DNA of 64,000 nt, taken from assembly GCA_019241645.1 (NCBI GenBank), contig JAFAWQ010000039.1, positions 62,001 to 126,000 of the forward strand. The letters are read 5' to 3'. Source of the DNA: Alphaproteobacteria bacterium. Its GTDB lineage: Bacteria; Pseudomonadota; Alphaproteobacteria; Micropepsales; Micropepsaceae. This document shows positions 11,364 to 28,160 of the stretch, piece after piece (position 1 is the stretch's first letter; each line of letters opens with the position of its first letter). A program made the position numbers and the translations under genes. The notes under the pieces were generated by a model. It ran no database searches and was not told the origin of the DNA. It saw only the letters and a program-made list of their open reading frames with translations.

Positions 11364-11945
11364 CTAGTTGAAATAAATGCCTGCCGCCTTCCCCACACCT
11401 CGGCCGAAGGTGGAGGAGAGCTGGTAGACGGTAAAGCGGAACGGCGAAGGTAAGCCGCTTGGGAAATCGGCGGTGATTTGAGCAGCGGTGTAGGTGAGCG
11501 AAGGTGAGGATACCGAGTTGAAGGAGCGGATGACATTGGAAAAGCCATCCAGGATTTCCACCTCGTAGCGTTCCGAAGACTCGCTCAGCGGAATCTCGAC
11601 CTGGTCCCAGCCGTCGCTTGCGGGATCGCGGTCGCGGCGCAGCCACGACAGCAACAAATCGCCGGATGCGGAATAGACAGCGCGCCACTGCACAGGCGAC
11701 AGCGGCCGCAAGCCGATGCCTTTGAATTGCAGCGAAATATACTGGTATGCCGGATCGGAAATCGGCTTGCCCTGCGGGCCGTAGAGATAATTGAACGGCA
11801 GCGCGTGTTCGGCCTGGCTCAACCCCAGTTGCATCAATGCTGAATCCAGAAGCACCACGCGTGCACCCGCTGCGAGCGGCGAACGCATCGCCCCTTCCGT
11901 GCCGGCCTGCCCGCGCAGCAAACGTGACAACGTCCATTCACCGGG
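11364..11945 (-). CDS. GTA megatron (gp15-like), 3' part, reached by +1 frameshift from 11938..15345
   Basis: GEWTLSRLLRGQAGTEGAMRSPLAAGARVVLLDSAL...FKGIGLRPLSPVQWRA... is the expected continuation of gp15-type proteins; no independent start with RBS identified. Confidence 0.8.
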   Translation of the reverse strand, partial: PGEWTLSRLLRGQAGTEGAMRSPLAAGARVVLLDSALMQLGLSQAEHALPFNYLYGPQGKPISDPAYQYISLQFKGIGLRPLSPVQWRAVYSASGDLLLSWLRRDRDPASDGWDQVEIPLSESSERYEVEILDGFSNVIRSFNSVSSPSLTYTAAQITADFPSGLPSPFRFTVYQLSSTFGRGVGKAAGIYFN

Positions 11946-14900
11946 GTCCGGTAAGCATCGCGTTCGCGAACTGCAGCACCTCCCATTCGCCGACCGCGTT
12001 CTGCACAGCGAGTGCATTGGCGCCGCCGAGTACGGACATATCGTCGAGTGACGACAGTGCCGTGCCGTCATAGATGGCAATTTTCAGTTGGTTGACCTCG
12101 TCCCAGCGCCACGCCGGCCCGGTGAAAAAATCGGCCGTGGTTTCGCCGATGGTGGCGGGCTTCTTCAGCGCGGTGTCGAGCACGTAATTCGAGTCAGTGG
12201 CGCTGCGGAACACCAGCACCGATCCCGGCCACCGCGATGCGAAAGCCGCGGCGAACGCATCCCACGGCTTCTGCTCTTGCGTGAGCCACGGCAGATCGAG
12301 AAACACCGCAAGCGCGCGGCCGGGCGAGGATAATCCCTGCATCTGCCCCGGTCCCCGCGCTGGCCCCGCGATCTCCTCGTAAATGGAGGGATCGGTGGCG
12401 ACCGATTGAATTTCGCGCCCGCCGGCATCGTTCACTTCCGTAAGCCGCAGACGTCGCTCGCGGCCACCAGCTGTGAGCACCACTTCGTCCGCCGGATCGA
12501 GCGCGAGTTGCGACGGCGGCAGCGCGAACGCCGCGCGCTCGCGCATTGTCCAGACATCCTGCAGCAGCCGCTCGCCGATGCCGATGGCGCCTGCCTGATC
12601 CAGCACGATCGGCAGCGCCGCTTGCGTGACGCGGTCGGACGTACCGACAAGGCGACGGGCCTCCGCCACTGCCTCCCGGTAATCGGCATCCACATCGATG
12701 TAGGCGATGCGAATGTCGTTCGGCAGATCGGTTTCCTGCGCCCGGATAAACGAAAAGCCGAAACCCGGATCGCCATGCTCCGGAATCACCAGATCGGTTT
12801 CGAGAACCGAAAGCGGATCGGGACGCCCCCGCGCCAGGAATTGGATCTCACCTTCGCTTTCCACCGCATCAAAAAAATAGGCGATGGAGAGGGGCTGGAG
12901 CACGTCGCGTACGCTCATGGTATCGGTCACGGCGAAGCCGGTGACCACACCATCAATATTGGAGACGTCGATCTCGCTGAAGTTCGCGTCCGCGCAAACG
13001 TCGGTCACCAGATCGGGCAACATCACCGCGCCGAGGCGGCCGTTCAGCCAATGGCCGAGATTGTAGTCGCGCGCATCGCCCCACACATTGGCAAACGCCG
13101 GAAAGAACGGAAACGGCCGCGCGTCCCAGCACCACAGATAGAGATTCGCCGTATCCAGCATCGCGCCGGAGTAGACGGACGATGTTGGATTGTTCGCCGG
13201 ATCGCTCCAGAATTTCAGATGCGCTTCCAGAAAGCGGCGCTGGATGATGTCGTCGCGCCCGCCATTGGAGTAATACGGCAGCGCACTCTCGCTCGACTTG
13301 GGATCGAAGAACACGTTGGGCTGGTTGGCGCCCTTGTCGACCGCCGGGCAGCCAAGCTCGGTGAACCAGATCGGCTTGCTCTGCGGCACCCAGGCCGTGT
13401 GCCCCGGACTCTCCGCACCGGCCGGCCGGTTGTGGTGCGGATTGCTCCACCACGCCCAGATGTCCTTTTGCCGGAACACCCAGGGCTTACCATGACCGTC
13501 GCTGATGGTGGTCCGCGCTTGCGCATCGCGGTCGGCATCGCTGGCGTAGTACCAGTCGTAATCCTCGCCGCCGCGAATGTTGGCGGTGAGATACTCCGCA
13601 TCGTGGATGTTTGTCGGGCCGTTCGCCGCGTCGTAGTCGAGATGCGCCGTGCCGTCACGCCAGTCGGACAGCTTCATGTAGTTGTCGATGCCCACGAAAT
13701 CGATGTTGGCGTCGCTCCACAGTGGATCGAGGTTGAACAGCAGCGCGCCCGGTGCATCGCCGGTCTGGTGATTGTTGTATTCGCTCCAGTCCGCGGCGTA
13801 GCCGATCTTGGTGCTGCTGCCGAGAATGGATCGCACATCCGCCGCCAGCGCTTTCAGCGCTGCGACCGCCGGATAGCTGGTGGCGCTGCTGCGGACGCGA
13901 GTCAGCCCGCGCAGTTCCGAACCGATGAGGAAGGCATCGACGCCGCCGGCCGCCGCGCAGAGATGCGCGTAATGCAGCACCATGCGGCGGTAGCCCCAAT
14001 CGTCGCCGCCAATCCAGCTCACGTTCGTTCCGCTGACGGAAAAATCACCAGCCGTAGCGCTGCCGAAGAAGTTGCTGACCTGTGTGGCCGCTGCGGCAGT
14101 TTTGTCAGGCGAGCCGGAAACACCCGACGCCGGATCGCAGGTGATGCGGCCGCGCCACGGATATGGCGGTTGCGAGCTCGCGCCGGTGTAGGGATCTTCC
14201 AGCGCGTTGCCGGCGGCGATGTCCATGAAAAGAAACGGATTGAACAGCACGCGCAAGCCGCGCGCCTTCAGTTCCTGTATCGCCTCCACCACGCATGCGT
14301 CCGATGGCGTGCCGCCATAAGCGGGAATGCCGCCCACCTGGCTCACCAGGTGCGCGTTTGCCCGCGTGACGCCGTTCACGCTCCAGGTTTGCGGATAAGT
14401 GTTTTTCTTGGCGATCTCCACGCCAGGCTTGATGAGCGTTTCGCCGCAGCGAAGGTCGTCGCCGAACCAGCCCACAACCAATGACACCGCGCGAAAATTC
14501 TGCGCCAGTGCCTGCAGCTCGTCGAGCGACGCGGTGTAGTCGGCCGCGCCGGCGACGTTGTGCGCGTTCTGCGGCGTGGTCGTTCCCCTGCCGTCATCGG
14601 CGGTTACGACTTCCGTCGCGTAGACGAACTCGCCGGCACCGGGAATCAGCGCCACGCCGCTTAAGCGATTCTCCAGCGCATCCGGATTGTTAGCGTTGAG
14701 CGAGCGGATGATCTCGAAATTCAGTTGCGGAATTCGGTTGCCGAAATTCGTCAGGTCAATGTCCTCGAACACGACGTACGCCAGGCCGCGATAGGCCGGC
14801 GTATTGCCGGCGCCTTCGGTTTCCTCGATCAGCGGATCGGCGGTTTGCGCGTCGTCACCGGGATAGAACCGCGTGGTGAATTGCGAGATGTCGATCAGGT

Positions 14901-15345
14901 TTCCATCAGCCCACACCCGGCCAATCTTTGTCACCGCGCCGGCGCACAGGCCGACCGCAAAGGAAATCGAATAGCGGTAGCCGATATCGGTTTCGGTGAC
15001 CTTCGGGCCGCCCTTGCCCCCGCCAGTCTGCTGCTCCGACTTGACAATGGTTTCCCTGAACTTGCTGGCCCACAGCAGCTGGCCCGCAACGCGCATGCGC
15101 CCATAGATTCGCGGAATCGGCGCGCCCTCTACAGAAGCCTGAATATTCACATCCGTCAGCCGCGGGCTGGTGCGCGTGATGTGCGTGCCGGGTGCAATGA
15201 GATTGTCGAGTTCCGCACCGAGCAGTGTGCCGATCGCCCCGCCGATCTGCGCGCCCGTGATGGTGGCGCCGAACAGCGAGAAGCCGCTGCCAAGCAGCGA
15301 AGCGCCCGCGGCCGATCCCGCGATGCCGAGTACAAGCGATGCCAT
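11938..15345 (-). CDS. GTA megatron / baseplate hub-TIM-barrel protein (gp15-like), 5' part
   Basis: 1135 aa; MASLVLGIAGSAAGASLLGSGFSLFGATITGAQIGGAIGTLLGAELD...; glycoside-hydrolase TIM-barrel region AADWSEYN, WFTELGCPAVDKGANQPNVFFDPKSSES typical of this family. Confidence 0.92.
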   Translation of the reverse strand: MASLVLGIAGSAAGASLLGSGFSLFGATITGAQIGGAIGTLLGAELDNLIAPGTHITRTSPRLTDVNIQASVEGAPIPRIYGRMRVAGQLLWASKFRETIVKSEQQTGGGKGGPKVTETDIGYRYSISFAVGLCAGAVTKIGRVWADGNLIDISQFTTRFYPGDDAQTADPLIEETEGAGNTPAYRGLAYVVFEDIDLTNFGNRIPQLNFEIIRSLNANNPDALENRLSGVALIPGAGEFVYATEVVTADDGRGTTTPQNAHNVAGAADYTASLDELQALAQNFRAVSLVVGWFGDDLRCGETLIKPGVEIAKKNTYPQTWSVNGVTRANAHLVSQVGGIPAYGGTPSDACVVEAIQELKARGLRVLFNPFLFMDIAAGNALEDPYTGASSQPPYPWRGRITCDPASGVSGSPDKTAAAATQVSNFFGSATAGDFSVSGTNVSWIGGDDWGYRRMVLHYAHLCAAAGGVDAFLIGSELRGLTRVRSSATSYPAVAALKALAADVRSILGSSTKIGYAADWSEYNNHQTGDAPGALLFNLDPLWSDANIDFVGIDNYMKLSDWRDGTAHLDYDAANGPTNIHDAEYLTANIRGGEDYDWYYASDADRDAQARTTISDGHGKPWVFRQKDIWAWWSNPHHNRPAGAESPGHTAWVPQSKPIWFTELGCPAVDKGANQPNVFFDPKSSESALPYYSNGGRDDIIQRRFLEAHLKFWSDPANNPTSSVYSGAMLDTANLYLWCWDARPFPFFPAFANVWGDARDYNLGHWLNGRLGAVMLPDLVTDVCADANFSEIDVSNIDGVVTGFAVTDTMSVRDVLQPLSIAYFFDAVESEGEIQFLARGRPDPLSVLETDLVIPEHGDPGFGFSFIRAQETDLPNDIRIAYIDVDADYREAVAEARRLVGTSDRVTQAALPIVLDQAGAIGIGERLLQDVWTMRERAAFALPPSQLALDPADEVVLTAGGRERRLRLTEVNDAGGREIQSVATDPSIYEEIAGPARGPGQMQGLSSPGRALAVFLDLPWLTQEQKPWDAFAAAFASRWPGSVLVFRSATDSNYVLDTALKKPATIGETTADFFTGPAWRWDEVNQLKIAIYDGTALSSLDDMSVLGGANALAVQNAVGEWEVLQFANAMLTGPR

Positions 15346-15697: not shown

Positions 15698-16186
15698 TCA
15701 GTTCTTGTACATGGTATAGGTGCTTTGCCAATTGGCAAGCGAGCTCGCCTGATTCACATACACGTCGGTTCGCACCGTGTGACTGCCGGTCGCGACAGTG
15801 ATGCTGCCCTGACCGTTGCCCGTGACATAGGAGCTGCCGCCGGCTGCAACCGACCCCTGATACGGGCATCCGGGATTGGTATAGGTGCCATCGACATTTG
15901 GACAGATCGCCCAAAGGCCGTCCGGAGTCTGGAGCTGCACCATTTCGGTGACCGCAACGGTACATGGGCCTTTCTTGCAGTTCAGTGTGTGCGAGTCTAT
16001 CGTATTGAATCCGGGATTGAGCGTTCCGCCATTTCCGTTGGCAATCAGCGCGTCCTTCAGCTTGATCGGCGGCGCCACAAAGTGCTGGCCGTTACCCGTT
16101 GGGCTGGTCCGGTCCGCGGCGGATGCCTGCAGGCAAAGCCCACCGGCCAAAGCCGTTCCCATCAATATCGCAATCAGTTTTCCCAT
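15698..16186 (-). CDS. Secreted hypothetical protein
   Basis: MGKLIAILMGTALAGGLCLQASAADRT signal peptide; followed by strong terminator. Confidence 0.7.
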   Translation of the reverse strand: MGKLIAILMGTALAGGLCLQASAADRTSPTGNGQHFVAPPIKLKDALIANGNGGTLNPGFNTIDSHTLNCKKGPCTVAVTEMVQLQTPDGLWAICPNVDGTYTNPGCPYQGSVAAGGSSYVTGNGQGSITVATGSHTVRTDVYVNQASSLANWQSTYTMYKN

Positions 16187-16327
16187 CGTAATCCCCTGAG
16201 TTTTCTTACACCCCATCAAACACATGGGTTCAACTTGCTATCATCATTTCGGCCATAGTTGAAGAGTCCCTGGACCGCCTTTTCGAGGGAGCACAGGCAG
16301 TGCCCTTTTGCCCGGTTTGACAGTCCC

Positions 16328-17053
16328 TTAAGGCCTCACGCCGTAAGTCAGGAAGGTGCGGACGATGTCCGGATCGCGCGCGCGGGCCTGGTCGATGTCG
16401 GCGTCGCCGCCGATGGTGTCGCCGGATTTGTGTTTCGCCACGCCGCGCAAATACAGCGCCGAAGCGAGGTTGGGATCGGCGTCCTTGGCTGCGGTGCAAT
16501 CGGCAATGGCGGGCGGGTAGGCGGCGCGACGCAGATCGACGAAGCACCGCGCATCCAGCGCCGCTGCATCGCCGGGCTTCAAGGTGAGTGCCTGGTTGCA
16601 GTCTTCCCACGCGTCGTCGAGATCGCGGCCCGAGGCGGCGCGGGCCCAGCAGCGTCCGCGAAACGCGGCCAGCGATGCGGGCTGCAGCTCGATCATTCTG
16701 CCGAAATCGGCGATGGCGTGGCGATAATCCTCGAGCGCCATCAGCGCGCGGGCGCGATTTTCCAACGCCTCCAGATCGTCCGGCTTGAGGCGCAATGCTT
16801 CGCTCAGATCGCCGACCGCGCTTCCGTACATTTTCGCCTTGAAGTAGGCCCGCCCGCGGTTGAAATAGGCCCAGGCGATTTCCGCGCCCGATCCGGTCGC
16901 GATAATCTCGCTGCACGACGCGATGGCCGCCTCGCCCTCGCCGACCGTGCACAAATCCGTGTCGCGGTTCTGCGCGAACGCCGTACCCGCTGACAACGCA
17001 ACCGCGAGTCCAGCCGACAAAATCCCAATCCGTCGCAGCGCAGAAAACAACAT
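16328..17053 (-). CDS. Secreted TPR (tetratricopeptide) repeat protein
   Basis: Signal peptide; AWAYFNRGRAYFKAKMYGSAVGDLSEALRLKPDDLEALENRARALMAL TPR units. Confidence 0.85.
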   Translation of the reverse strand: MLFSALRRIGILSAGLAVALSAGTAFAQNRDTDLCTVGEGEAAIASCSEIIATGSGAEIAWAYFNRGRAYFKAKMYGSAVGDLSEALRLKPDDLEALENRARALMALEDYRHAIADFGRMIELQPASLAAFRGRCWARAASGRDLDDAWEDCNQALTLKPGDAAALDARCFVDLRRAAYPPAIADCTAAKDADPNLASALYLRGVAKHKSGDTIGGDADIDQARARDPDIVRTFLTYGVRP

Positions 17054-17055
17054 CG

Positions 17056-17808
17056 TTACTCCTTGATGCCCCACGAGCCCAGCACATCCGCCGTGCGTGG
17101 ACTGAGGCGAATGGCGGCGGCCATGTCTTGTTTACCAGCGTCTTCCTGACCCGCATGGCGCCTGGCCAGTCCGCGCATGTAGAGAGCCCCGGCGCTCTCC
17201 GGCTTTTCCTTCAGCACAGCATCGCAATCCGCGACGGCGTCCGCATAGCGGCCCAGCCGGTAGAGCACGAAGCAGCGCGCCTCGCGCGCGTTGGTATCTT
17301 CCGGCTTCAGCCGGATGGCCTCGTCGCATTCGCTGAGCGCTCGCGCCAGGGGTTTGCCCCGCACGACCCGCACCCAGCAGAGATTCGTCAAAGCCTCTCT
17401 CTCCGGCTTGCCCTTGGCGGCCTCCGCGTAATCGGCGAGTGCCTTTTCATGATCGCCCGTATCTTCGTAGGCATCGCCGCGCATTTCGTAGATGGCGGTC
17501 GGATCGTGCATCCAGCCGAGAGCATGGGTGTAATCGTCGATCGCGCTTTGCGGATCGCCGTCGAAATGCTGCAGCAGGCCGCGCGCGAACAGCATGCAGG
17601 CCTGCGCCCGGGTCGGCGCATGCGGATTGCGCAGCATGCGCGTCAACTCCGCGATGCGGTAGTGAATGGGCGGCGCCAGCACCGGATAGGCAAAGCAACG
17701 ATCGGGACTGAACGCCGATGACGGAGGCGCGACGAAGATCGCAATCGCACACAGCATTGCGGCACCGCCGACGCGAACGCTTCCGGCCATTGCCCACTTT
17801 AACGCCAT
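17056..17808 (-). CDS. Secreted TPR repeat protein
   Basis: Signal peptide; AIYEMRGDAYEDTGDHEKALADYAEAAKGKP / AREARCFVLYRLGRYADAVADCDAVLKEKP. Confidence 0.85.
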   Translation of the reverse strand: MALKWAMAGSVRVGGAAMLCAIAIFVAPPSSAFSPDRCFAYPVLAPPIHYRIAELTRMLRNPHAPTRAQACMLFARGLLQHFDGDPQSAIDDYTHALGWMHDPTAIYEMRGDAYEDTGDHEKALADYAEAAKGKPEREALTNLCWVRVVRGKPLARALSECDEAIRLKPEDTNAREARCFVLYRLGRYADAVADCDAVLKEKPESAGALYMRGLARRHAGQEDAGKQDMAAAIRLSPRTADVLGSWGIKE

Positions 17809-18546
17809 TCAAGCGGAGATGCGAAAGGCAAAGGCGAGCTTGCCGCGCCAGAACGGCGAAAGCGGCTCCTCGCTCACCCGCTTGTTCTGGCGAGAATGGA
17901 TCAAGGCTAGATTCCCTCCCTTGAAAAGGGAGGGTCGGATCGCGCAGCGATCCGGGGAGGGATCATTCTCCGGTGCTGGCAGCATGACCCCCACCCGATC
18001 CGCTCTGCGGATCGACCTCCCCCTTTCCGGGGGAGGAAACGAAGCCACAATCCCGCAATGTTTGGCCGGGCCGTGCGGCAGCATGCGGAACAGCACGATG
18101 TCGCCCGGGCCGATGTCTTTCGCGGAAATCTCCGCCGCATGGCGCCGGAGCGCCATATAGAAGGTTTCGACCCCGGTGGCCTCTGCCCAGTCCAGCGAAT
18201 AGGGCGGAACATCCTCGGGCTCCTCGCCGCGCAACTCGCGCCAGATGCCACGCAGCAAACCCAGACAATCACATCCGATGCCTTTGAGACTTGCCTGATG
18301 CACATACGGCGTCCCGATCCAGGATCGCGCGATGGCAACGATTTGGGATTCCCTCTCCCCCTCGGGGGGAGAGGGATACAGGGTGAGGGGGATGGCGGAA
18401 TTCAGAACACAGAAGTCGGAAGTCAGAACCGGATGCGAATAAGGAGCGGTTTCGATTTCTGATTTCTGACTTCTGATTTCCGATACCCCCTCACCCCTGC
18501 CCCTCTCCCCCATAGGGGGCGAGGGGAATCGTTGTTCAGTTTCCAT
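17809..18546 (-). CDS. GTA NlpC/P60 peptidase (gp14-like) containing two in-frame palindromic-element insertions
   Basis: SQIVAIARSWIGTPYVHQASLKGIGCDCLGLLRGIWREL...GPGDIVLFRMLPHGPAKHCGIVAS core; C-term LALIHSRQNKRVSEEPLSPFWRGKLAFAFRI; start ATG overlaps stop of DUF2163 gene (ATGGAAACTGA). Confidence 0.88.
   Translation of the reverse strand: METEQRFPSPPMGERGRGEGVSEIRSQKSEIETAPYSHPVLTSDFCVLNSAIPLTLYPSPPEGERESQIVAIARSWIGTPYVHQASLKGIGCDCLGLLRGIWRELRGEEPEDVPPYSLDWAEATGVETFYMALRRHAAEISAKDIGPGDIVLFRMLPHGPAKHCGIVASFPPPERGRSIRRADRVGVMLPAPENDPSPDRCAIRPSLFKGGNLALIHSRQNKRVSEEPLSPFWRGKLAFAFRISA
17911..18037. repeat. Palindromic element E3 (inside gp14 ORF)
   Basis: ccctcccttgaaaagggaggg tcggatcgcgcagcgatccggggaggg ... 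cccccacccgatccgctctgcggatcgacctccccctttccgggggagg. Confidence 0.88.
18349..18528. repeat. Palindromic element E4, composite, at 5' end of gp14 ORF
   Basis: ccctctcccc ctcggggggagaggg...; centre with cagaagtcggaagtcagaa / ttctgatttctgacttctgatttccg; distal arm ccccctcacccctgcccctctcccccatagggggcgagggg. Confidence 0.82.
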
Positions 18547-19429
18547 AGCGGCTGCCTCCGTCGAGGAGTTGCGATTGCGCCGGGTAGGACGTCACCGCGT
18601 CGTTGCCGGGCATGTAGGGGAAGCCGCGGAAGTTCAGGGTATTGGCGAACTTCGCCTTGCAGGTGCCGAACTGCTTGTCGCAGCCGGCGCTGACGATGAA
18701 GGAATCGCCGATCGCGATCGCTTCGCTCATCCGCTGCCAGAGTTCGAGACTGACCCGCGTACCGACAACGCCGTGGCGCTTCACTTCGATGGCACGCCCC
18801 GCATTGGCGCCGCTCGTCCAGCTGAGCTTGCCGCCGGCGAACCATTGATCCGCGAAATCGTCGAGCCCGCTTGCCGTGAAGCGCCGCTGATCGGTGATCG
18901 TGGCCACGCTTCCAACGCCGCTATACAGCGGATTGCTCAGGTCGATGGTGCAGCGCGCATCGCCGAGATCGGCATCGCAGGAATATCCGTAGGCGCGGCC
19001 GACCGGCTGATTGAGCCGATGCGCCAGGCCGCGCACCTCCGCCTGGAACGCGGTGCGCCCGCGCTTCACCTCGCCGAGATTACCTTTGCGCATCAGCACG
19101 CGCTGATCCGGCGCCGCCCAATTTACCCGCCAGATTTCGATGCTCGCATTGTCGTAGAGGCCAGCGGCAAGATCGGCTTCGCCGATGGCGCCGGACGACA
19201 GCGCGCCAAGCACGGTGAGATTGTCCACCGCCAGGCCGAGCGTGGACTGCACCTCGCTGGCGGTGAAGCCGCTCACCGCTTCGTAAGTCACGCCATCGAA
19301 CACCACCGCGACATCATGATCGGTGAAGCCAAGCGTCGTCGCATCGCCGCGCACGATCTTCCAGCACCAGCACAAGGTGGTGGTGCCGGAGTTCAGGTGT
19401 GATTGGAGAGCGGGTGAGATGGATTTCAC
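18536..19429 (-). CDS. DUF2163 GTA protein (gp13-like)
   Basis: MKSISPALQSHLNSGTTTLCWCWKIVRGDATTLGFTDHDVAVVFDGVTYEAVSGFTASEVQSTLGLAVDNLTVLGAL. Confidence 0.92.
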   Translation of the reverse strand: MKSISPALQSHLNSGTTTLCWCWKIVRGDATTLGFTDHDVAVVFDGVTYEAVSGFTASEVQSTLGLAVDNLTVLGALSSGAIGEADLAAGLYDNASIEIWRVNWAAPDQRVLMRKGNLGEVKRGRTAFQAEVRGLAHRLNQPVGRAYGYSCDADLGDARCTIDLSNPLYSGVGSVATITDQRRFTASGLDDFADQWFAGGKLSWTSGANAGRAIEVKRHGVVGTRVSLELWQRMSEAIAIGDSFIVSAGCDKQFGTCKAKFANTLNFRGFPYMPGNDAVTSYPAQSQLLDGGSRYGN

Positions 19430-20049
19430 AGCCGAATCTCCACCAGCGGGATCGAGGGGATTTCACCGGCGGCGAAGTTCGAGAGATTGATCGAAAGAGA
19501 ATCCGTGTCGAATCGCACCGGTGTGTCGAATTCGTAACCGGCGGTGATGGCGGCGCCGGCAGCAGGCGCGGAGGCAAACGCAATCAGGCCCGTTGTATCG
19601 TCGATTGTGATACCCGAGGTTTGCTCCAGGCCCGCGACGGCGATACGCACCGTTCCGGCGACTGGTTTCTTGATGGTACGCACCGAACTGGAGGGGCCCG
19701 AGATGTAGGTCTTGATCAGCTGAAACTGCGTTGTTGTTCCATCGCCGGTGCCGATGTTCTGATCGAGCGGCGCCAAGGCCGCGTTCGGCGCGCAGGATTT
19801 GAAATCGGCGAAATCCCTGAAGCGAAAGCCATAGAGGCGCCCCAGGCGAGCTTCGAAGAATGCAATGACCGCGTGCAGATCGTCCAGAGTTTTCACGCCG
19901 TAGCCCACATCGTAATGCCTTCGCGAATTGGCCCACACGGCGTTGCGCTCCTCGAAGCCGGAGCCGAGCGTGACGATTTCCGTCTTGCGCTCCGGCCCGC
20001 CGCTCGAGTGAAAGGCAATGGCGGTGGGGAATTGAATTTCGTGGAACAT
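19426..20049 (-). CDS. DUF2460 GTA protein (gp12-like)
   Basis: Start ATG at 20049; MFHEIQFPTAIAFHSSGGPERKTEIVTLGSGFEERNAVWANSRRHYDVGYGVKTLDDLHAVIAFFEARLGRLYGFRFRDFADFKS. Confidence 0.93.
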   Translation of the reverse strand: MFHEIQFPTAIAFHSSGGPERKTEIVTLGSGFEERNAVWANSRRHYDVGYGVKTLDDLHAVIAFFEARLGRLYGFRFRDFADFKSCAPNAALAPLDQNIGTGDGTTTQFQLIKTYISGPSSSVRTIKKPVAGTVRIAVAGLEQTSGITIDDTTGLIAFASAPAAGAAITAGYEFDTPVRFDTDSLSINLSNFAAGEIPSIPLVEIRL

Positions 20050-20612
20050 CACAAATTCCTTTGGCCGCGGGCTAGCGCGCGGGACAGCATGGCGGCTACT
20101 TGCGTTTCCGATTTGAGAAAGCTCTGCGCGTCGCGCGCGTTCACGTTGAGCACGATCTGCGGCCGTGCCGACGCACCTACCGCACCGTTCGGCACGATCG
20201 AGCCCACGCCTTGCGGCACGAACAGCTCCGGCCCTTGCTCGCCGACGAGATAAGCAAGCCCTGCATCCACCGGTCCACCTGCCGCGCGCGCGCCGCCCAC
20301 AGGCAACAGCGAGGATATCAGCGACGACAGCAAACCTTCGATCGGCTTCTCGATGAACTGCCTGACCGCGATGCGATCGAAATCCGCCAGGATCGCATTG
20401 ACCAGCGAATCCATCGACGCTTTGCCGGAAAGCACGGCGCGCGCAATGGTGTCGGCGATGGCGTTGAAGCTGCCGCTGACTGCGCGCTCGATTTGCGTGG
20501 CGCTGTCGGTGACCGGCCCTTTGGCGAACGCATCGAGCGATTTCGCCACGGCGGCCAGCGCGGTATCCACGCCGGAGAAATCGGCGTTTACGTTTACGGT
20601 TGCGCTCGCCAT
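20049..20612 (-). CDS. Tail tape measure protein (gp11-like)
   Basis: 187 aa; AYLVGEQGPELFVPQGVGSIVPNGAVG motif; position in GTA order. Confidence 0.85.
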   Translation of the reverse strand: MASATVNVNADFSGVDTALAAVAKSLDAFAKGPVTDSATQIERAVSGSFNAIADTIARAVLSGKASMDSLVNAILADFDRIAVRQFIEKPIEGLLSSLISSLLPVGGARAAGGPVDAGLAYLVGEQGPELFVPQGVGSIVPNGAVGASARPQIVLNVNARDAQSFLKSETQVAAMLSRALARGQRNL

Positions 20613-20815
20613 GGTGGCACCTCATCCGGATAAAGCTGCATCAGATGTTCGAGATCGGCGCGCGAGAGCGGAGCAGCGCGGTGCGAGCGGCGGGCGAATC
20701 CGTTCACCGCTGCGCGCCACTCGCCGAGCGACATGGCCCAGAACACCTCCGGTGTTATCCGCATCACGCCGAAGGCGAGTTCGAGGATGCGGTCCCAGCC
20801 AAAGGGCTTGCGTGC
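20594..20815 (-). CDS. Phage tail assembly chaperone (rcc01693-like); start codon uncertain
   Basis: Not in ORF track; reading minus strand gives ...KPFGWDRILELAFGVMRITPEVFWAMSLGEWRAAVNGFARRSHRAAPLSRADLEHLMQLYPDEVPPWRAQP*, stop TAA at 20594-20596; upstream merges into element E5. Confidence 0.75.
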   Translation of the reverse strand, partial: ARKPFGWDRILELAFGVMRITPEVFWAMSLGEWRAAVNGFARRSHRAAPLSRADLEHLMQLYPDEVPPWRAQP

Positions 20816-21171
20816 GCCCCCTCCACCGCGCTTTGCGCGGTCCCCCTCCCCGGCTGCGCAGGGGAGGATCCCTCTCGCTTCAGCCCGACAGCATCGAAGG
20901 CATCGGTGATGGCGCCGATTAAGGTGCCGAGGCCGGTGTCGAGCTTCAGCACTTCGGCCGGCGCGATGTCATGTCCGGCGCCGCGCAACAATGCCGCCGC
21001 AACCATCGCCAGATCCATGGTGCCAAGGGATTTCAGCTTGCCGGCGATTTCGCTCAAGCTGGAAACGCCTAGGCCGTTTTCGATTTCGGCCAGCGCGCCG
21101 AGCGTCAGCCGCATGACATAGCGTTCGGTTCCGGCAAGAAATTCGCTCTCGCCCCGGATTTTGTTGGGCAT
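20764..21171 (-). CDS. GTA gp10-like protein with element-derived C-terminal tail
   Basis: MPNKIRGESEFLAGTERYVMRLTLGALAEIENGLGVSSLSEIAGKL; tail LKREGSSPAQPGRGTAQSAVEGAHASPLAGT... encoded by E5. Confidence 0.85.
   Translation of the reverse strand: MPNKIRGESEFLAGTERYVMRLTLGALAEIENGLGVSSLSEIAGKLKSLGTMDLAMVAAALLRGAGHDIAPAEVLKLDTGLGTLIGAITDAFDAVGLKREGSSPAQPGRGTAQSAVEGAHASPLAGTASSNSPSA
20815..20876. repeat. Palindromic element E5 (short form)
   Basis: gccccctccaccgcgctttgcgcggtccccctccccggctgcgcaggggagg. Confidence 0.7.
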
Positions 21172-21191
21172 TGTGAAACTCCTTCTCTCGA

Positions 21192-21608
21192 TCAAAGCGC
21201 CGTAAACGTCAGCGCGCCGGCGGAATGCAGCGACAGCGACAGCTTTACTTCGCCATCGTGCGGGCCTTCGTATTGCAGGGAGGCGATCTGGAACGGTCCG
21301 GCGATGGTTCCGAAGTTCGGAACGATCACCTGGAAGTTCGGCGTTGTCTGATTGAAGAATGCGCTACGCAGACTTTCGTCGCTCGCCGCATCCTTGAACA
21401 CACCGGAGCCGGAGAAGCTTGCGGCTTTCACACCAGCGCCCGCCAGCAATTCGCGCCAGTGATTGGCCGAATCGGCATTGGTGACATCGACGGTGGTGGA
21501 ATTGAACGACAAGGTCGTGGTGCGCAGGCCGGCGACGGTGGTGAAAGTCTCGGGCATCCCGCCATCGCCGATCTTGACGAGCAGGTCGCGCCCCTTTTGT
21601 GCGGACAT
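21192..21608 (-). CDS. Major tail protein (TP901-1 type, gp9-like)
   Basis: MSAQKGRDLLVKIGDGGMPETFTTVAGLRTTTLSFNSTTVDVTNADSANHWRELLAGAGVKAASFSGSGVFKD. Confidence 0.93.
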   Translation of the reverse strand: MSAQKGRDLLVKIGDGGMPETFTTVAGLRTTTLSFNSTTVDVTNADSANHWRELLAGAGVKAASFSGSGVFKDAASDESLRSAFFNQTTPNFQVIVPNFGTIAGPFQIASLQYEGPHDGEVKLSLSLHSAGALTFTAL

Positions 21609-21619
21609 GTTGTTTCTCC

Positions 21620-22021
21620 TTAGGGTTCGGTGACGGCGCGGAAGGTGAGCCGCGCGCGAAAGGTCTGGCCGTCGGGCTCGCGGCTGAAGCCAGTCGCGAG
21701 ATGGCGGATATCGATCAGGGTGGCGCCGCTGATCGCGAGCACAGCATTGTGCAGCGTGGCGCGGACGATTTCGGCGATCTGCTTGGCTTCCTCGTGCCCT
21801 GCGCTTCGCGACCAGACATCAATTTGAACCGCATGCTCGCTGCCGGTTTCGGTCGCGGTGCTCCAGTCGCTTTCGCCACCATCGCCCAGCACCACATAGG
21901 GAAAGACGCTTTCGCGCGGCACGAAATCGAACAGGCAAGTGCCGATCAGCGCCTGCAGTTCACTGCTGGCCGAAAGCGCGGCGAAGATCGCCTGCTGCAG
22001 AGCGAAAGAGATGCCGCTCAT
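21620..22021 (-). CDS. DUF3168 tail terminator (gp8-like)
   Basis: LQQAIFAALSASSELQALIGTCLFDFVPRESVFPYVVLGDGGESDWSTATETGSEHAVQIDVWSRSAGHEEAKQIAE. Confidence 0.92.
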   Translation of the reverse strand: MSGISFALQQAIFAALSASSELQALIGTCLFDFVPRESVFPYVVLGDGGESDWSTATETGSEHAVQIDVWSRSAGHEEAKQIAEIVRATLHNAVLAISGATLIDIRHLATGFSREPDGQTFRARLTFRAVTEP

Positions 22022-22332
22022 GCGATTTTCTCCGTCATCAGAGTGAGGAATTGGGCTTGGGGGCCATCGTCGAGCACCGCATGAATGGTGAACACGCGTC
22101 CGCCGTCGGTCGCGCGCATGCCGGCGGCTACGTCCGTGCGGCGGCGAATGGTGATGCGATAGCGAACGCGCGCTTCGCTGGCATCGGGACCGAACACATC
22201 GGCGCCGCTGACTGGTTCGATCTCAGCCCATACGGTGGCGAGCGTGCTCCAGCCCGCGCTGTATCCGCCGCCGCCGTCGGGCAAGAGCGTCTGCGCTTCC
22301 AGCGTGACGCGGCGGTTCAGTGAAGAGAGCAT
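22018..22332 (-). CDS. Head-tail adaptor / head closure protein (gp7-like)
   Basis: LNRRVTLEAQTLLPDGGGGYSAGWSTLATVWAEIEPVSG. Confidence 0.92.
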   Translation of the reverse strand: MLSSLNRRVTLEAQTLLPDGGGGYSAGWSTLATVWAEIEPVSGADVFGPDASEARVRYRITIRRRTDVAAGMRATDGGRVFTIHAVLDDGPQAQFLTLMTEKIA

Positions 22333-22355
22333 GATGTTTCTCCAACGCGCTGCCT

Positions 22356-22500
22356 AACCCCCTCCCCTCGCGGGAGGGGGCAAATGCTTTGAGCGAAGCG
22401 AAAAGTATTTGGGGGAGGGGAGAACGAGGCTTTGCCCCTCCCCCAAGCCTCACGCGCGTGTGCACGTTCGGCTTGCCCCCTCCCGCGAGGGGAGGGGGTA
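22356..22500. repeat. Palindromic element E6
   Basis: ccccctcccctcgcgggaggggg ... gccccctcccgcgaggggaggggg with internal complementary arms. Confidence 0.88.
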
Positions 22501-22512
22501 GTAAGCGCATCG

Positions 22513-23076
22513 CTAGAGATGCAAGACTCGGAACGGCGACAGCAGCGCTAGAATGTCCAGCGGCAATTCAGCCGGCGCTTCGCCGCGGTGTTCGTACAGG
22601 AAGGCAGTCAGTTCCAAGATGGCGTCGCGAATTCCTGCCGGAACATCGGTCGCGGCGCTGCCGTAACCGGCCGTAAAGGCCACGGCCACCGCATTCATCG
22701 CGCGCAGGTTGATCGGCGGCAGCACCGTCGATTTCAATGCAAGCCGCGCGGGCGCGGAGGCTGCATCCACCTGGTAGGCCGCTGGATCGATCACGCTGGC
22801 GCTATCGTTCGGCGCGTACACCGTGACCGAACTCACGCCCTGCAGTGGCGGCAGCGCGATTTCAATTGGGGCGCAGAGCGGCCAGCCATCCAGCCACAAA
22901 ATCCAGCTTTGCGTGTTGAGCGCGCGGCCGGTGTGCCATTCGGCGCGGGCGCGCGCGGCGATGATGAGGCGGGCGATCAGCGCGTCGTCGTCGCTTGTAT
23001 CGACCTTCAGATGCAGCTTGGCATCGGCCAGAGTCACCGGCTCGACCGCCGGCGGGGTGATGAGTTGGAGGGACAT
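22513..23076 (-). CDS. Head-tail connector (gp6-like)
   Basis: LITPPAVEPVTLADAKLHLKVDTSDDDALIARLIIAARARAEWHTGRALNTQSW. Confidence 0.92.
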   Translation of the reverse strand: MSLQLITPPAVEPVTLADAKLHLKVDTSDDDALIARLIIAARARAEWHTGRALNTQSWILWLDGWPLCAPIEIALPPLQGVSSVTVYAPNDSASVIDPAAYQVDAASAPARLALKSTVLPPINLRAMNAVAVAFTAGYGSAATDVPAGIRDAILELTAFLYEHRGEAPAELPLDILALLSPFRVLHL

Positions 23077-23085
23077 AATTCAATC

Positions 23086-23225
23086 CTTCACCTCCCCCAT
23101 TGTGGGGAGGTCGATTTGCTTGAGCGAAAACGAAAGCAAATCGGGTGGGGGGCGATGCTTGTTTTAGGACTGTCCCCCCACCCGCGTCGCTGGGCTCCGC
23201 GACCTCCCCACAAGGGGCAAGTGAT
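23086..23225. repeat. Palindromic element E7
   Basis: ttcacctcccccattgtggggaggtcgatttgcttgagcg...gacctccccacaaggggcaagtga. Confidence 0.9.
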
Positions 23226-23228
23226 GGG

Positions 23229-24485
23229 CTAGCTCACCGCGAACTTCATCAGCTTGATGGCCTCGAAATTCTGCACGCCGCCGCCCACGCGCTTCGTCGT
23301 GTAGAACAGCACGTAAGGCTTGGCCGAATACGGATCGCGCAGCACGCGAATGCCCACGCGATCCACCACCAGATAACCGCGGGCGAAATCGCCGAAGGCA
23401 ATCGAGTAGGAATTCGTAGCGATGTCCGGCATGTCTTCGGCGACCGCCACCGGGAAGCCGAACAGCGTTGCCGGCTGGCCTGCCGCAAGTCCCGGCGACC
23501 AGATGTAGTTGCCGGTCGAGTCCTTGAACTTGCGGATGGCCGCCTCAACCTTGCGATTCATCACCCAGCTCGCGTTGGCGCGATAAGCCTGCTTCGGAGC
23601 ATATGCCAGATCGAGCAGAGCATCGCTGGGATTGGAGACGGGAAACCCGCCTGCGGAGCCGGAAGGAATGTAGCCGAGATTGCCCCAGCTCCAGCTTCCC
23701 TCCGCCACGTTGGTGTAGCTGAGCAGGCCTTTGGGCTGCGTGGTGCCGTTGCCCGTGATGAACGCGGCACCTTCCTGCACGCCGAAAACGATCTGCACTT
23801 CGGAAGCGAGCCAGGTTTCGATATCCACCTGCGCATCGTCCAGCAATGCCTGCGTCGCGGCCGGCATGGCGTAAAGCTCCATCGCCGGGAAATCGATGGC
23901 CGCGAGATTGGGCGTGCTGGTTTGCGGCCGCGCGTCGGTTTCCGCAACCCAGCCGCTACCCGCGTCGTTGGTGCTGATCGGCTTGCGGTACACATTGCCG
24001 CCGATCTGCTGCACCGTGGCGATGGCGCGGATGGGCGAGACCTTGGCCAACACGCGGTCGATAGTCTGCTCGATCTCCAGCGGCACAACGTAACCGCCGT
24101 CCGGGTTGGAGCCGATGCTCATTGCCTTCAGCTCCAGCGTGTTGAAGCCGCTCGCATCGCCCTTGCGCACGTATGTGTCGAACGCCGCCTTGCGCTCGCG
24201 CGCGGTGCGATCGCTGGCGGCTTTGGTTTCGCCGCCGAGCTGCGGCCGCGCCGCCGACAGCATCAGCTCATCGAGCAGCCGCTTCTGCGTGTCCAGCGCC
24301 TTGTTGATGCGCTCGACCTTTTCTTCGGTGACGACATCGGCGCCGCGCTTCTCCAACTGCGCCAGGCGATTGTCGTTTGCTTCCTTGAAGCTTTCGAAGG
24401 CGTGCAGGAATTCTCCGAACGCCTCCTTGATTTCGCGGCTCTGCGCCGCGTCGCGCGTTTCCAGCGCCTTGGTTTCCAGTTCCAT
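23229..24485 (-). CDS. Major capsid protein, HK97 family (gp5-like)
   Basis: N-terminal coiled delta domain then SIGSNPDGGYVVPLEIEQTIDRVLAKVSPIRAIATVQQIGGNVYRKPI. Confidence 0.95.
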   Translation of the reverse strand: MELETKALETRDAAQSREIKEAFGEFLHAFESFKEANDNRLAQLEKRGADVVTEEKVERINKALDTQKRLLDELMLSAARPQLGGETKAASDRTARERKAAFDTYVRKGDASGFNTLELKAMSIGSNPDGGYVVPLEIEQTIDRVLAKVSPIRAIATVQQIGGNVYRKPISTNDAGSGWVAETDARPQTSTPNLAAIDFPAMELYAMPAATQALLDDAQVDIETWLASEVQIVFGVQEGAAFITGNGTTQPKGLLSYTNVAEGSWSWGNLGYIPSGSAGGFPVSNPSDALLDLAYAPKQAYRANASWVMNRKVEAAIRKFKDSTGNYIWSPGLAAGQPATLFGFPVAVAEDMPDIATNSYSIAFGDFARGYLVVDRVGIRVLRDPYSAKPYVLFYTTKRVGGGVQNFEAIKLMKFAVS

Positions 24486-24511
24486 GTGTGTGGTTCTCCT
24501 TGGGGGTTGAA

Positions 24512-24651
24512 ATCACCTCCCCTGTTGTGGGGAGGTCGATTTGCTTGAGCAGAGCGAAAGCAAATCGGGTGGGCGGCTGCGCGTGCCTTTGCACCTTCCC
24601 CCATCCGGCTCGCTTCGCTTGCCGACCTCCCCACAAAGGGGGAGGTGAATT
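24512..24651. repeat. Palindromic element E8 (read as C-terminus of protease gene)
   Basis: tcacctcccctgttgtggggaggtcgatttgcttgagc...gacctccccacaaagggggaggtga. Confidence 0.9.
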
Positions 24652-25190
24652 TTTGGGCGAACGGCTTCAGCCGCGAGCCGAATGTGTTGCGCCGTGACGC
24701 TTTTCGCGCCGATGGCTGTGACGGCGCTTCCTTCCAACAGCGGGAAGGTCACGACCGAAACTTCCCAAAGCTCGACTTCGATGAGCGTGCGCGCGCCGGT
24801 TGCCGGATCGCGGCGCGCGCTTTTCGTCTTGAATCCGATGGAGAGGCCGTCGAGCGCGCCGTCGTTCAGCAGCGCCAGCACGTCGCGGCCACGCTCGATA
24901 TCGGTGGTGAGGCGGCCGCGCACATAAAGCCCGCGCGCATCCTCCCGGATCTCCGCCCACACGCCGATGGGCTCATGCGCGAAATGCTGGTAGAGCATGC
25001 GAATGCGCGAGAGGCCGCGGCTGCGCAGCGATTTGGCGAAAGCACCGGGCGCCATCACGTCGCCCGCGCCATCGGGGACCCCAAACAGCGAGGCGTAGCC
25101 TTCGAACTCACCGCGACTGAGAGTGCTAAGCGCGGCCGGCGCGTCGAGACGCGCCAGCCTGCGCCGCAAATGCATGACTTGCGGGGGCAT
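24513..25190 (-). CDS. HK97 prohead protease (gp4-like) with element-encoded C-terminal tail
   Basis: GEFEGYASLFGVPDGAGDVMAPGAFAKSLRSRGLSRIRMLYQHFAHEPIGVW...; start taken at MPPQVMHLRRR. Confidence 0.92.
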   Translation of the reverse strand: MPPQVMHLRRRLARLDAPAALSTLSRGEFEGYASLFGVPDGAGDVMAPGAFAKSLRSRGLSRIRMLYQHFAHEPIGVWAEIREDARGLYVRGRLTTDIERGRDVLALLNDGALDGLSIGFKTKSARRDPATGARTLIEVELWEVSVVTFPLLEGSAVTAIGAKSVTAQHIRLAAEAVRPKIHLPLCGEVGKRSEPDGGRCKGTRSRPPDLLSLCSSKSTSPQQGR

Positions 25191-25210
25191 GATGATTCTC
25201 TGTGTGTTGG

Positions 25211-25240
25211 ATTCACCTCCCCACAAAGAGGGAGGTCGAG
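25211..25240. repeat. Palindromic element E9 (single-arm remnant)
   Basis: attcacctccccacaaagagggaggtcgag. Confidence 0.65.
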
Positions 25241-25525
25241 TTATTGCGCGTGCGACTGCGAGCTCGTTCCCTGCATGCGGTCGAGCTTGCCTTCGATGCG
25301 AGACAGCTGATCTTTCATCTCGCGCACCTGTTCTCCCAGCACGGCAACTTGCGCAATCGCCGCCTGCTCGCTCTGCACAGTGTGCTCAAGCACACTGATG
25401 CGGTTGGCGGCGGAGCCTGCCCAGAACAGCGCGCCGGCCGTTTGCAACAAAAAAGCCGCCACGAGGGCGGCCGGAACTTTCTTGGCATCCAGCGCCGGCT
25501 GGATGTGGTCGCCGATGATACTCAT
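25241..25525 (-). CDS. Small membrane protein between portal and protease genes (gp3.5-like position)
   Basis: 94 aa, one TM, coiled-coil C-terminus. Confidence 0.75.
   Translation of the reverse strand: MSIIGDHIQPALDAKKVPAALVAAFLLQTAGALFWAGSAANRISVLEHTVQSEQAAIAQVAVLGEQVREMKDQLSRIEGKLDRMQGTSSQSHAQ
25449..25471 (-). terminator. Terminator-like hairpin inside gp3.5-like coding sequence
   Basis: Minus strand GCCGCC-CTCGT-GGCGGC-TTTTTT. Confidence 0.6.
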
Positions 25526-25528
25526 TGC

Positions 25529-26719
25529 TCACTCCATTGTATCCCCGTCGTCGAGCGGGCCGTAGCCGGCGGCGGCGCGCTTTTCGTTGAGCGTTAGAAA
25601 CGAAGCGCCGGTCAACTTCTCCCAGGTGGCTTCGCGCGCTTCGCTGAGCGCGGGCACCGCATCGATGTCGTAATCGATGCGCAACGCCTCGCCGAATTTC
25701 GGCTTGAGCCAGCGCGTGAGCTGCGCGGCTGTGCGCGCCACCAGCGGCAGCACCGTCTGCCGCCACAGCGCCAGATTCGCCTGCGCGTAATTCGAGTAGG
25801 TATTGTCGCCGGGAATGCCGAGCAGCATCGGCGGCACGCCGAAGGCGAGCGCGATCTCGCGCGCCGCCACGTCGCGCGTGTTGGCGAAATCGAGATCGGC
25901 CGGCGAGTGGCTCATGCTCTGCCATTCGAGCCCGCCTTCCAGCACCATCGGCCGGCCGGCATTGATGGCGCCCTGGTAGCCGGTTTCGAGCTCGTCCTTC
26001 AGCCGCCGGAACTGATCGTCGGTCAGGTTGGGCGCGCCGTCCGGGCCTTTGTAGACGAGCGCGCCGGAAGGCCGCGCCGCATTGTCGAGCAGCGCCTTCG
26101 TCCACGATGCGCCCTGGTTGTGCACGTCGATGGCGTTGAGCGCGGGCTCGATCGGCGACAATCCGTAATGATCGTCGAGGGGATGAAACAGGCTGCCGTG
26201 CAGCAGCGGAAGGAACCCGCTGGCATCGCGGCCGATGCGTGCGCTTCGCCCGTTGACGCAGTATTCGTACGCCAGCGGCCAGCCGCCGGCGCTTTCGATG
26301 GCCTTCACGCGATCCGGACGCAGCACATGCAGCTCGCGCACCTCGCCCTGAATGGTGAGTGCCTGCAGATACGAATTGCCGGCGCATTGCAGAAAGGCAT
26401 ACCAGCGCTCGAACAAGGTCGCGCCGCTTTCCCGTGCATTGGGCGATCGCAGCAATGCGAGCAATGGATGCTGCTCCAGCTCGGTCTCGCCTTCGTACAG
26501 CAGAAACGGCACACTGGCTGCGGCCTCGGCGATCATTCGCACGCAGCGATAGACCACGGCGTTTTTCATCACGCCGTTTCGCGCCAGGCTGGCGTAATCG
26601 CGCGAACTCCAGCGCGGGCCGCCGATGAGTTGCAACGCGATCCACGGCGGCGTGGATTTGGTTTCCGGCACGCAGGTTTGCGCCCGCCGCTCCATCGAGC
26701 GGAAGAGTCGTTCGAACAT
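25529..26719 (-). CDS. Phage portal protein, HK97 family (gp3-like)
   Basis: MFERLFRSMERRAQ...GSLFHPLDDHYGLSPIEPALNAIDVHNQGASWTKALLDNAARPSGAL...ALAFGVPPMLLGIPGDNTYSNYAQANLALWRQTVLPL. Confidence 0.95.
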   Translation of the reverse strand: MFERLFRSMERRAQTCVPETKSTPPWIALQLIGGPRWSSRDYASLARNGVMKNAVVYRCVRMIAEAAASVPFLLYEGETELEQHPLLALLRSPNARESGATLFERWYAFLQCAGNSYLQALTIQGEVRELHVLRPDRVKAIESAGGWPLAYEYCVNGRSARIGRDASGFLPLLHGSLFHPLDDHYGLSPIEPALNAIDVHNQGASWTKALLDNAARPSGALVYKGPDGAPNLTDDQFRRLKDELETGYQGAINAGRPMVLEGGLEWQSMSHSPADLDFANTRDVAAREIALAFGVPPMLLGIPGDNTYSNYAQANLALWRQTVLPLVARTAAQLTRWLKPKFGEALRIDYDIDAVPALSEAREATWEKLTGASFLTLNEKRAAAGYGPLDDGDTME

Positions 26720-26728
26720 GTGGTTCCT

Positions 26729-26871
26729 TTCACCTCCCCCAACGTGGGGAGGTCGAAGTGGCGAGCGAAGCGAGACACTTCGGGTGGGGGGCGAAGGGAG
26801 CATACTCCCCCACCCGATCCATTTCCGCTTCGCTCAAATGGATCGACCTCCCCACGTCGGGGGAGGTGAAT
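26729..26871. repeat. Palindromic element E10
   Basis: cacctcccccaacgtggggaggtcgaagtggcgagcgaagcgagacacttcgggtgggg...gacctccccacgtcgggggaggtga. Confidence 0.9.
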
Positions 26872-28160
26872 CAGTAGCGTACCTTCGGAACTCCCTGGCG
26901 CTGCTGCGGGAACAGTTCCGTCAGGGCCCAAACCAGCGCATCGAGGCGGTCGGGAGATTTGCCGGAGCCGTCATACTGGCAGAGCTGATCCTCCAGTTGC
27001 GGAAACACGCCGGCGTGATGCACGCGGCCATTTTCGTACATTGCCGACACCGGCTCGGCGCGTAGCAGCTTGCCTTTGGAGGCGTGCACTTTCCTGACAT
27101 TCATGTTGGAATGCGCGTTGAACAACGTGCTCTTCACCATGTCGCCGCCTTGGTTGGCTTCGGCCACCACGCAATCGGCTTCGTACTGTTCGTAGGCATC
27201 GGCCACGCGATCGGCCCATTGCTTGGCGCTGAGCCGTTCGCGCGTGAAGTCGGCGAGCACGTAGGCGTCATCTTCTACCCTGCCGGCAACTACGATGCCG
27301 CATGCGCCTGTCTGACTCGCCGGAGGATCGACGCCGACGACAACGCGCGTGCAGTGCGGCTCCTGCCTCACCCGCGCGCTTTCGATCCATTCGCGGCGCC
27401 ACAACGCGCCTTCCACATCCTCGATGATTTCGCCATCCAGCTCCTGGCGGCCCAATCGCGTTTTGCCGTAAGTTTTCTTCATCGTGGCGATGAACGCCTT
27501 CGGCAGATTGGCCTTGTTCTCATACGTCGTGCTTTTGGTCACAATGCAATCGGACGACTTTGCGAGGTCGAGCAGCGCCGGAATCGGCCGAGGCGTGGTG
27601 GTGAGCATCAGCCTGGGATCCTCTCCCAGCCGCAATCCCATGCGCAGCATGTCGAGCGCATTCTGCGCCTCCGGCCATTTGCAGAACTCATCGCCCCAGG
27701 CGAGATCGAACTGATAGCCGCGAAGAGAATCCGGCTCGTCGGCGCTCATGACGCAGGCTTCGGCACCGTTGGCCGGCCAGCGCACACGGCGCAAGGATGG
27801 CTCATATTCCGCCCCGGGACTGACAGAGAGCAATCCCGCCGGGCCTTCGATCATCACCATGCGCGCATCGCCATGGGTGGCGGCAATGAGCGCCACCCGT
27901 TTGGCGCGGCCGCTGCGAACGTGCTCCGCCACCCATTCGGCGCCGGCGCGGGTTTTTCCCGCCCCGCGTCCGCCAAGAAACAACCAGATGCGCCAGTCGC
28001 CTTCTGGCTCATATTGTTCATCTCGCGCCCAGAATGACCATGTTCCATGCAGCTCTTTGGCTTGCGCTTCAGTCAGACCCCGGAAGAGTTCGTCTCTCTC
28101 GTTCAATTGTAACGATGCGAGTGACCTCACGCTGAAGCGCTTCCAAGGCAGTTCCGTCAT
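26871..28160 (-). CDS. Terminase large subunit (gp2-like)
   Basis: WRIWLFLGGRGAGKTRAGAEWVAEHVRSG (Walker A), FDLAWGDEFCKW (Walker B), nuclease region VVGVDPPAS. Confidence 0.95.
   Translation of the reverse strand: MTELPWKRFSVRSLASLQLNERDELFRGLTEAQAKELHGTWSFWARDEQYEPEGDWRIWLFLGGRGAGKTRAGAEWVAEHVRSGRAKRVALIAATHGDARMVMIEGPAGLLSVSPGAEYEPSLRRVRWPANGAEACVMSADEPDSLRGYQFDLAWGDEFCKWPEAQNALDMLRMGLRLGEDPRLMLTTTPRPIPALLDLAKSSDCIVTKSTTYENKANLPKAFIATMKKTYGKTRLGRQELDGEIIEDVEGALWRREWIESARVRQEPHCTRVVVGVDPPASQTGACGIVVAGRVEDDAYVLADFTRERLSAKQWADRVADAYEQYEADCVVAEANQGGDMVKSTLFNAHSNMNVRKVHASKGKLLRAEPVSAMYENGRVHHAGVFPQLEDQLCQYDGSGKSPDRLDALVWALTELFPQQRQGVPKVRY

Follow-up and report, generated by a model that had tools for sequence, protein, structure and literature searches.

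A single extra base, probably a recent insertion, splits the baseplate megatron gene of an RcGTA-type GTA cluster in a Micropepsaceae bacterium

We show that, in the 64,000-nucleotide stretch of alphaproteobacterial DNA analysed here (the window), the baseplate megatron gene of an RcGTA-type GTA is broken by one surplus C in a run of four, that no relative examined carries this break, and that the coding sequence on both of its sides remains constrained. The explanation we favour, and hold to be probable with real room for doubt, is a recent one-base insertion, from CCC to CCCC, that is truly in the organism; the presence of the extra C in the organism, beyond its assembly, is the part that we infer. 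Whether the base arose by mutation or by error, the sequence comparisons make programmed frameshifting very unlikely. The features on which the argument depends are as follows:

11938..15345, minus strand: first part of the megatron gene (g15), 1135 aa; matches NF048004 positions 1-1115 with 1546 bits, as well as GTA_TIM, Phage-tail_3 and the first 70 positions of Rcc01698_C
11943..11946, minus strand: CCCC run (GGGG on the plus strand), one C beyond what the frame needs, as judged from the sequence and the closest relative (G074, locus L054)
11364..11942, minus strand, +1 frame: C-terminal part of the megatron, 192 aa, without a start codon at its beginning; matches NF048004 positions 1117-1296
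17809..28160, minus strand: remaining structural genes of the GTA cluster, on the upstream side of the megatron; NCBIfam matches, all genes open and without a frameshift relative to their relatives

The first part of the megatron is a minus-strand ORF that begins at 15345 and ends in a TGA at 11940-11938. Its end reads ATG CTT ACC GGA CCC CGG TGA (...QFANAMLTGPR-stop), with GGA at 11949-11947, CCC at 11946-11944 and CGG at 11943-11941. When one C of the C4 run is skipped, translation continues as LTGP-GEWTLSRLLRGQAGTEGAM... and stays open until a stop at 11366-11364. The two parts match the NF048004 profile (length 1299) consecutively, the first exceeding the curated cut-off of 800 bits alone and the second (E 1.8e-46) making the match near full-length, and they also match the RcGTA megatron chain 6tba_8A consecutively, at residues 6-1118 and then 1123-1297. 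Because both parts match the profile and the solved chain in this order, the split gene is more than a chance arrangement. The gene thus lacks the single ORF of a GTA megatron, with the TGA and a +1 shift in its path, and the break cuts the Pfam domain Rcc01698_C into positions 1-70 and 70-98. These results bear out the initial annotation in placing a +1 split of the megatron at GGA-CCC-C-GGT beside a TGA, with the correct coordinates and translation. Its description of the site as CCC-C before a stop holds for the CCCC run but not for the layout, which is CCC-CGG-TGA, the stop coming one codon later than a CCC-stop site would have it.

The cluster upstream of the megatron encodes an NlpC/P60 protein (g14), hub, distal tail protein, tape measure, tail tube, head closure, head-tail connector, capsid, prohead protease, portal and terminase. 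This is the gene order of an RcGTA-type cluster, with three small genes that have no NCBIfam match. The split gene resembles RcGTA g15, the megatron Rcc01698 (PDB 6tba, 6teh; NF048004), in its consecutive matches over almost the whole length and in its position as the last large gene, after the hub and NlpC/P60 genes. It differs from RcGTA g15 in that one surplus base disrupts its ORF within the fibre-binding domain, and in that g14 and g15 are 2.4 kb apart, the intervening DNA carrying a small ORF and two TPR-like genes. The suggestion that the break marks a dead GTA is too strong, as the remaining structural genes all have open frames, most of them with matches to their families, and the decay of the megatron amounts to this one base.

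Two further features of the cluster were observed. The two TPR-like genes and the small, secreted-looking ORF (15698-17808, minus strand) interrupt the usual GTA order between g14 and the megatron, and a comparable TPR-like gene stands between g14 and g15 in G074. Within g14 (NlpC/P60, 17809-18546), a strongly palindromic repeat of ~135 bases (-83 kcal/mol; 17911-18045, minus strand) lies in frame, lengthening a loop by about 38 residues; it is absent from most relatives, including G074, while L061 has an insert of different length in the same loop, and three diverged partial copies of the repeat occur in 701 kb of the genome. This repeat may resemble the in-frame palindromic elements of Rickettsia.

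The megatron was found in 32 of the 69 genomes of the congeneric set, which includes the window's own. The junction lies in one frame in all congeneric copies that reach it, and also in copies from families elsewhere in the class. Among copies that span the site completely, the closest is that of G074 (82-83% amino acid identity); it reads ACC GGC CCC GGC GAG TGG, compared with ACC GGA CCC C GGT GAA TGG in the window, so that the extra base relative to the relatives' frame is one C. The junction comparison left out G081 (87% identity in the hub gene), whose assembly is without the C-terminal region of the megatron. In three other genomes the megatron is frameshifted, in each case away from the window's site: within a few codons downstream of it in G010, where the break is a different one, and near residues 370 and 518 in G011 and G029. 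Comparison with G074 gave a dN/dS of 0.14-0.16 for the part preceding the break and 0.22 for the part following it, in which 7 residues are changed only in the window and 16 only in G074. By this measure, the C-terminal part is still under purifying selection. The dN/dS against G074 gives no sign of long-standing neutrality after the break, which must therefore be very recent or not real, and a long-dead pseudogene is ruled out by the unrelaxed constraint.

The CCCC run had raised the possibility of a programmed +1 ribosomal frameshift, in which the peptidyl-tRNA-Pro would slip from CCC to the +1 CCC and yield a short, fibre-less and a long megatron in a set ratio. A tRNA can re-pair on CCC-C, constraint is kept downstream of the break, and structural genes of Listeria phages use +1 shifts on CCC (PMC5009743), at CCC_UGA in the tsh genes and at a CCC followed by a pseudoknot in the capsid gene of PSA. 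Like the phages PSA, A118 and A500, the window has a proline CCC near a UGA within a structural gene of phage type, but where their CCC is followed by UGA (tsh) or a pseudoknot (cps), the window has CGG, no detected stimulator and no conservation. The slow A-site codon, usually a stop, that would directly follow the slip codon is absent, its place being taken by CGG. The downstream RNA is no stabler than dinucleotide shuffles and in fact folds slightly less well (z +0.99 and +1.15, for pseudoknot-free folds). In its layout, the site resembles the Salmonella frameshift mutations at CCC-CAA-UGA, which are not rescued without suppressors: parental strains that lack one cannot grow without histidine (PMC3617221). 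Neither the break nor the need for a shift is conserved in any relative examined; an intact single ORF in sister genomes, which is what we found, is the outcome that the initial annotation had itself named as speaking against recoding. The site layout, the unexceptional folding of the downstream RNA and, on top of these, the lack of conservation make recoding unlikely, and we reject a programmed frameshift, on the relatives' intact frame and the site layout, as highly improbable. That this species alone has recently acquired a +1 recoding site, giving mixed fibre-less and fibre-bearing GTA baseplates, seems more improbable still. Hardly credible is a split gene whose second part would be translated separately from an internal start and join the first part in the particle: an in-frame ATG does lie 18 codons into the second part, after GAAGGGGCG, but no relative has a two-gene arrangement, and an internal restart producing a two-piece protein is unlikely because the cut falls inside one domain, Rcc01698_C.

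An assembly or sequencing error, with the extra C confined to the assembly and the organism's megatron intact in one frame, is a serious possibility, albeit one that we consider doubtful. An extra base in a homopolymeric C run is also how such an error would look, every relative is intact at the site, and the megatron shows no other decay, with constraint past the break that is not relaxed and is as expected for an intact gene. Against an error, the C run is just four bases long and the rest of the assembly (2.87 Mb in 53 contigs, the window being in contig C33; 99.67% complete, 0.09% contamination) yielded no other frameshift where it was compared. This survey set relatives' ORFs (1.26 Mb of DNA) against 701 kb of the genome, with confident matches covering ~77 kb (stringent) to 108 kb (lenient) of coding DNA; the megatron was the sole relative ORF split across two frames. 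With no other event seen, frameshifts should occur at most about once per 26-36 kb (95%, rule of three), a limit that still permits a single error; an indel-ridden assembly is unsupported. The reverse comparison flagged the breaks of G011 and G029, and thus the survey method works; it missed that of G010, close to the window's own. Of the readings first proposed, an inactivating mutation and a sequencing error both remain, with mutation somewhat favoured.

In RcGTA, the fibre-binding domain of the megatron comprises residues 985-1304 (PMC7296036). If the insertion is real, ribosomes stopping at the TGA would produce a 1135-residue megatron without its last ~190 residues. Judging from the published RcGTA structure, this truncation would fall in the middle of the fibre-binding domain, and the iris, adhesin-like, peripheral and central domains would be kept. 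Since more than half of the fibre-binding domain would be removed, fibre attachment should fail, and particles, if made, would have tail fibres that are not properly attached or would not form a normal baseplate.

Sequence comparison across the genus indicates that GTA decay is common, which speaks for a real insertion. Megatron matches were absent from 37 of the 69 congeneric genomes, some of these absences presumably being due to incomplete assemblies, and G007 and G031 retain nothing more than remnants. Pseudogenisation and loss of alphaproteobacterial GTAs, possibly as cheater lineages, have been reported (PMC10883770). The window resembles those clusters in having a disrupted structural gene in an otherwise complete cluster, with the GTA lost in other congeneric species, and differs from them in that it has one wrong base and intact constraint, so that the break is either very young or an error. 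We considered whether the megatron is a hot spot for breaks, but with four frameshifted megatrons, compared with one split copy among terminase, portal and hub genes of similar summed length, the numbers are too small to say so.

Other arrangements were seen in individual genomes. In the single-contig genome G028, the GTA terminase is split at residue 318/319 (G028:C1:3090049-3091261). In G007 (locus L020, around 3786), the megatron from residue 340 on directly adjoins part of a capsid gene, an arrangement that would fit a large deletion joining both ends of the GTA cluster. G063 and G064 have three intact megatron genes each, which suggests several GTA-like or prophage clusters per genome.

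The break is in itself an ordinary one-base lesion in a GTA gene, and GTA pseudogenisation has already been published. If it is an error, it merely explains why annotation would call the megatron a pseudogene. If the insertion is real, it would be a loss-of-function allele of very recent origin in a GTA that is otherwise intact, and may mark the first step towards losing the GTA; about half of the genomes in this genus no longer show a megatron.
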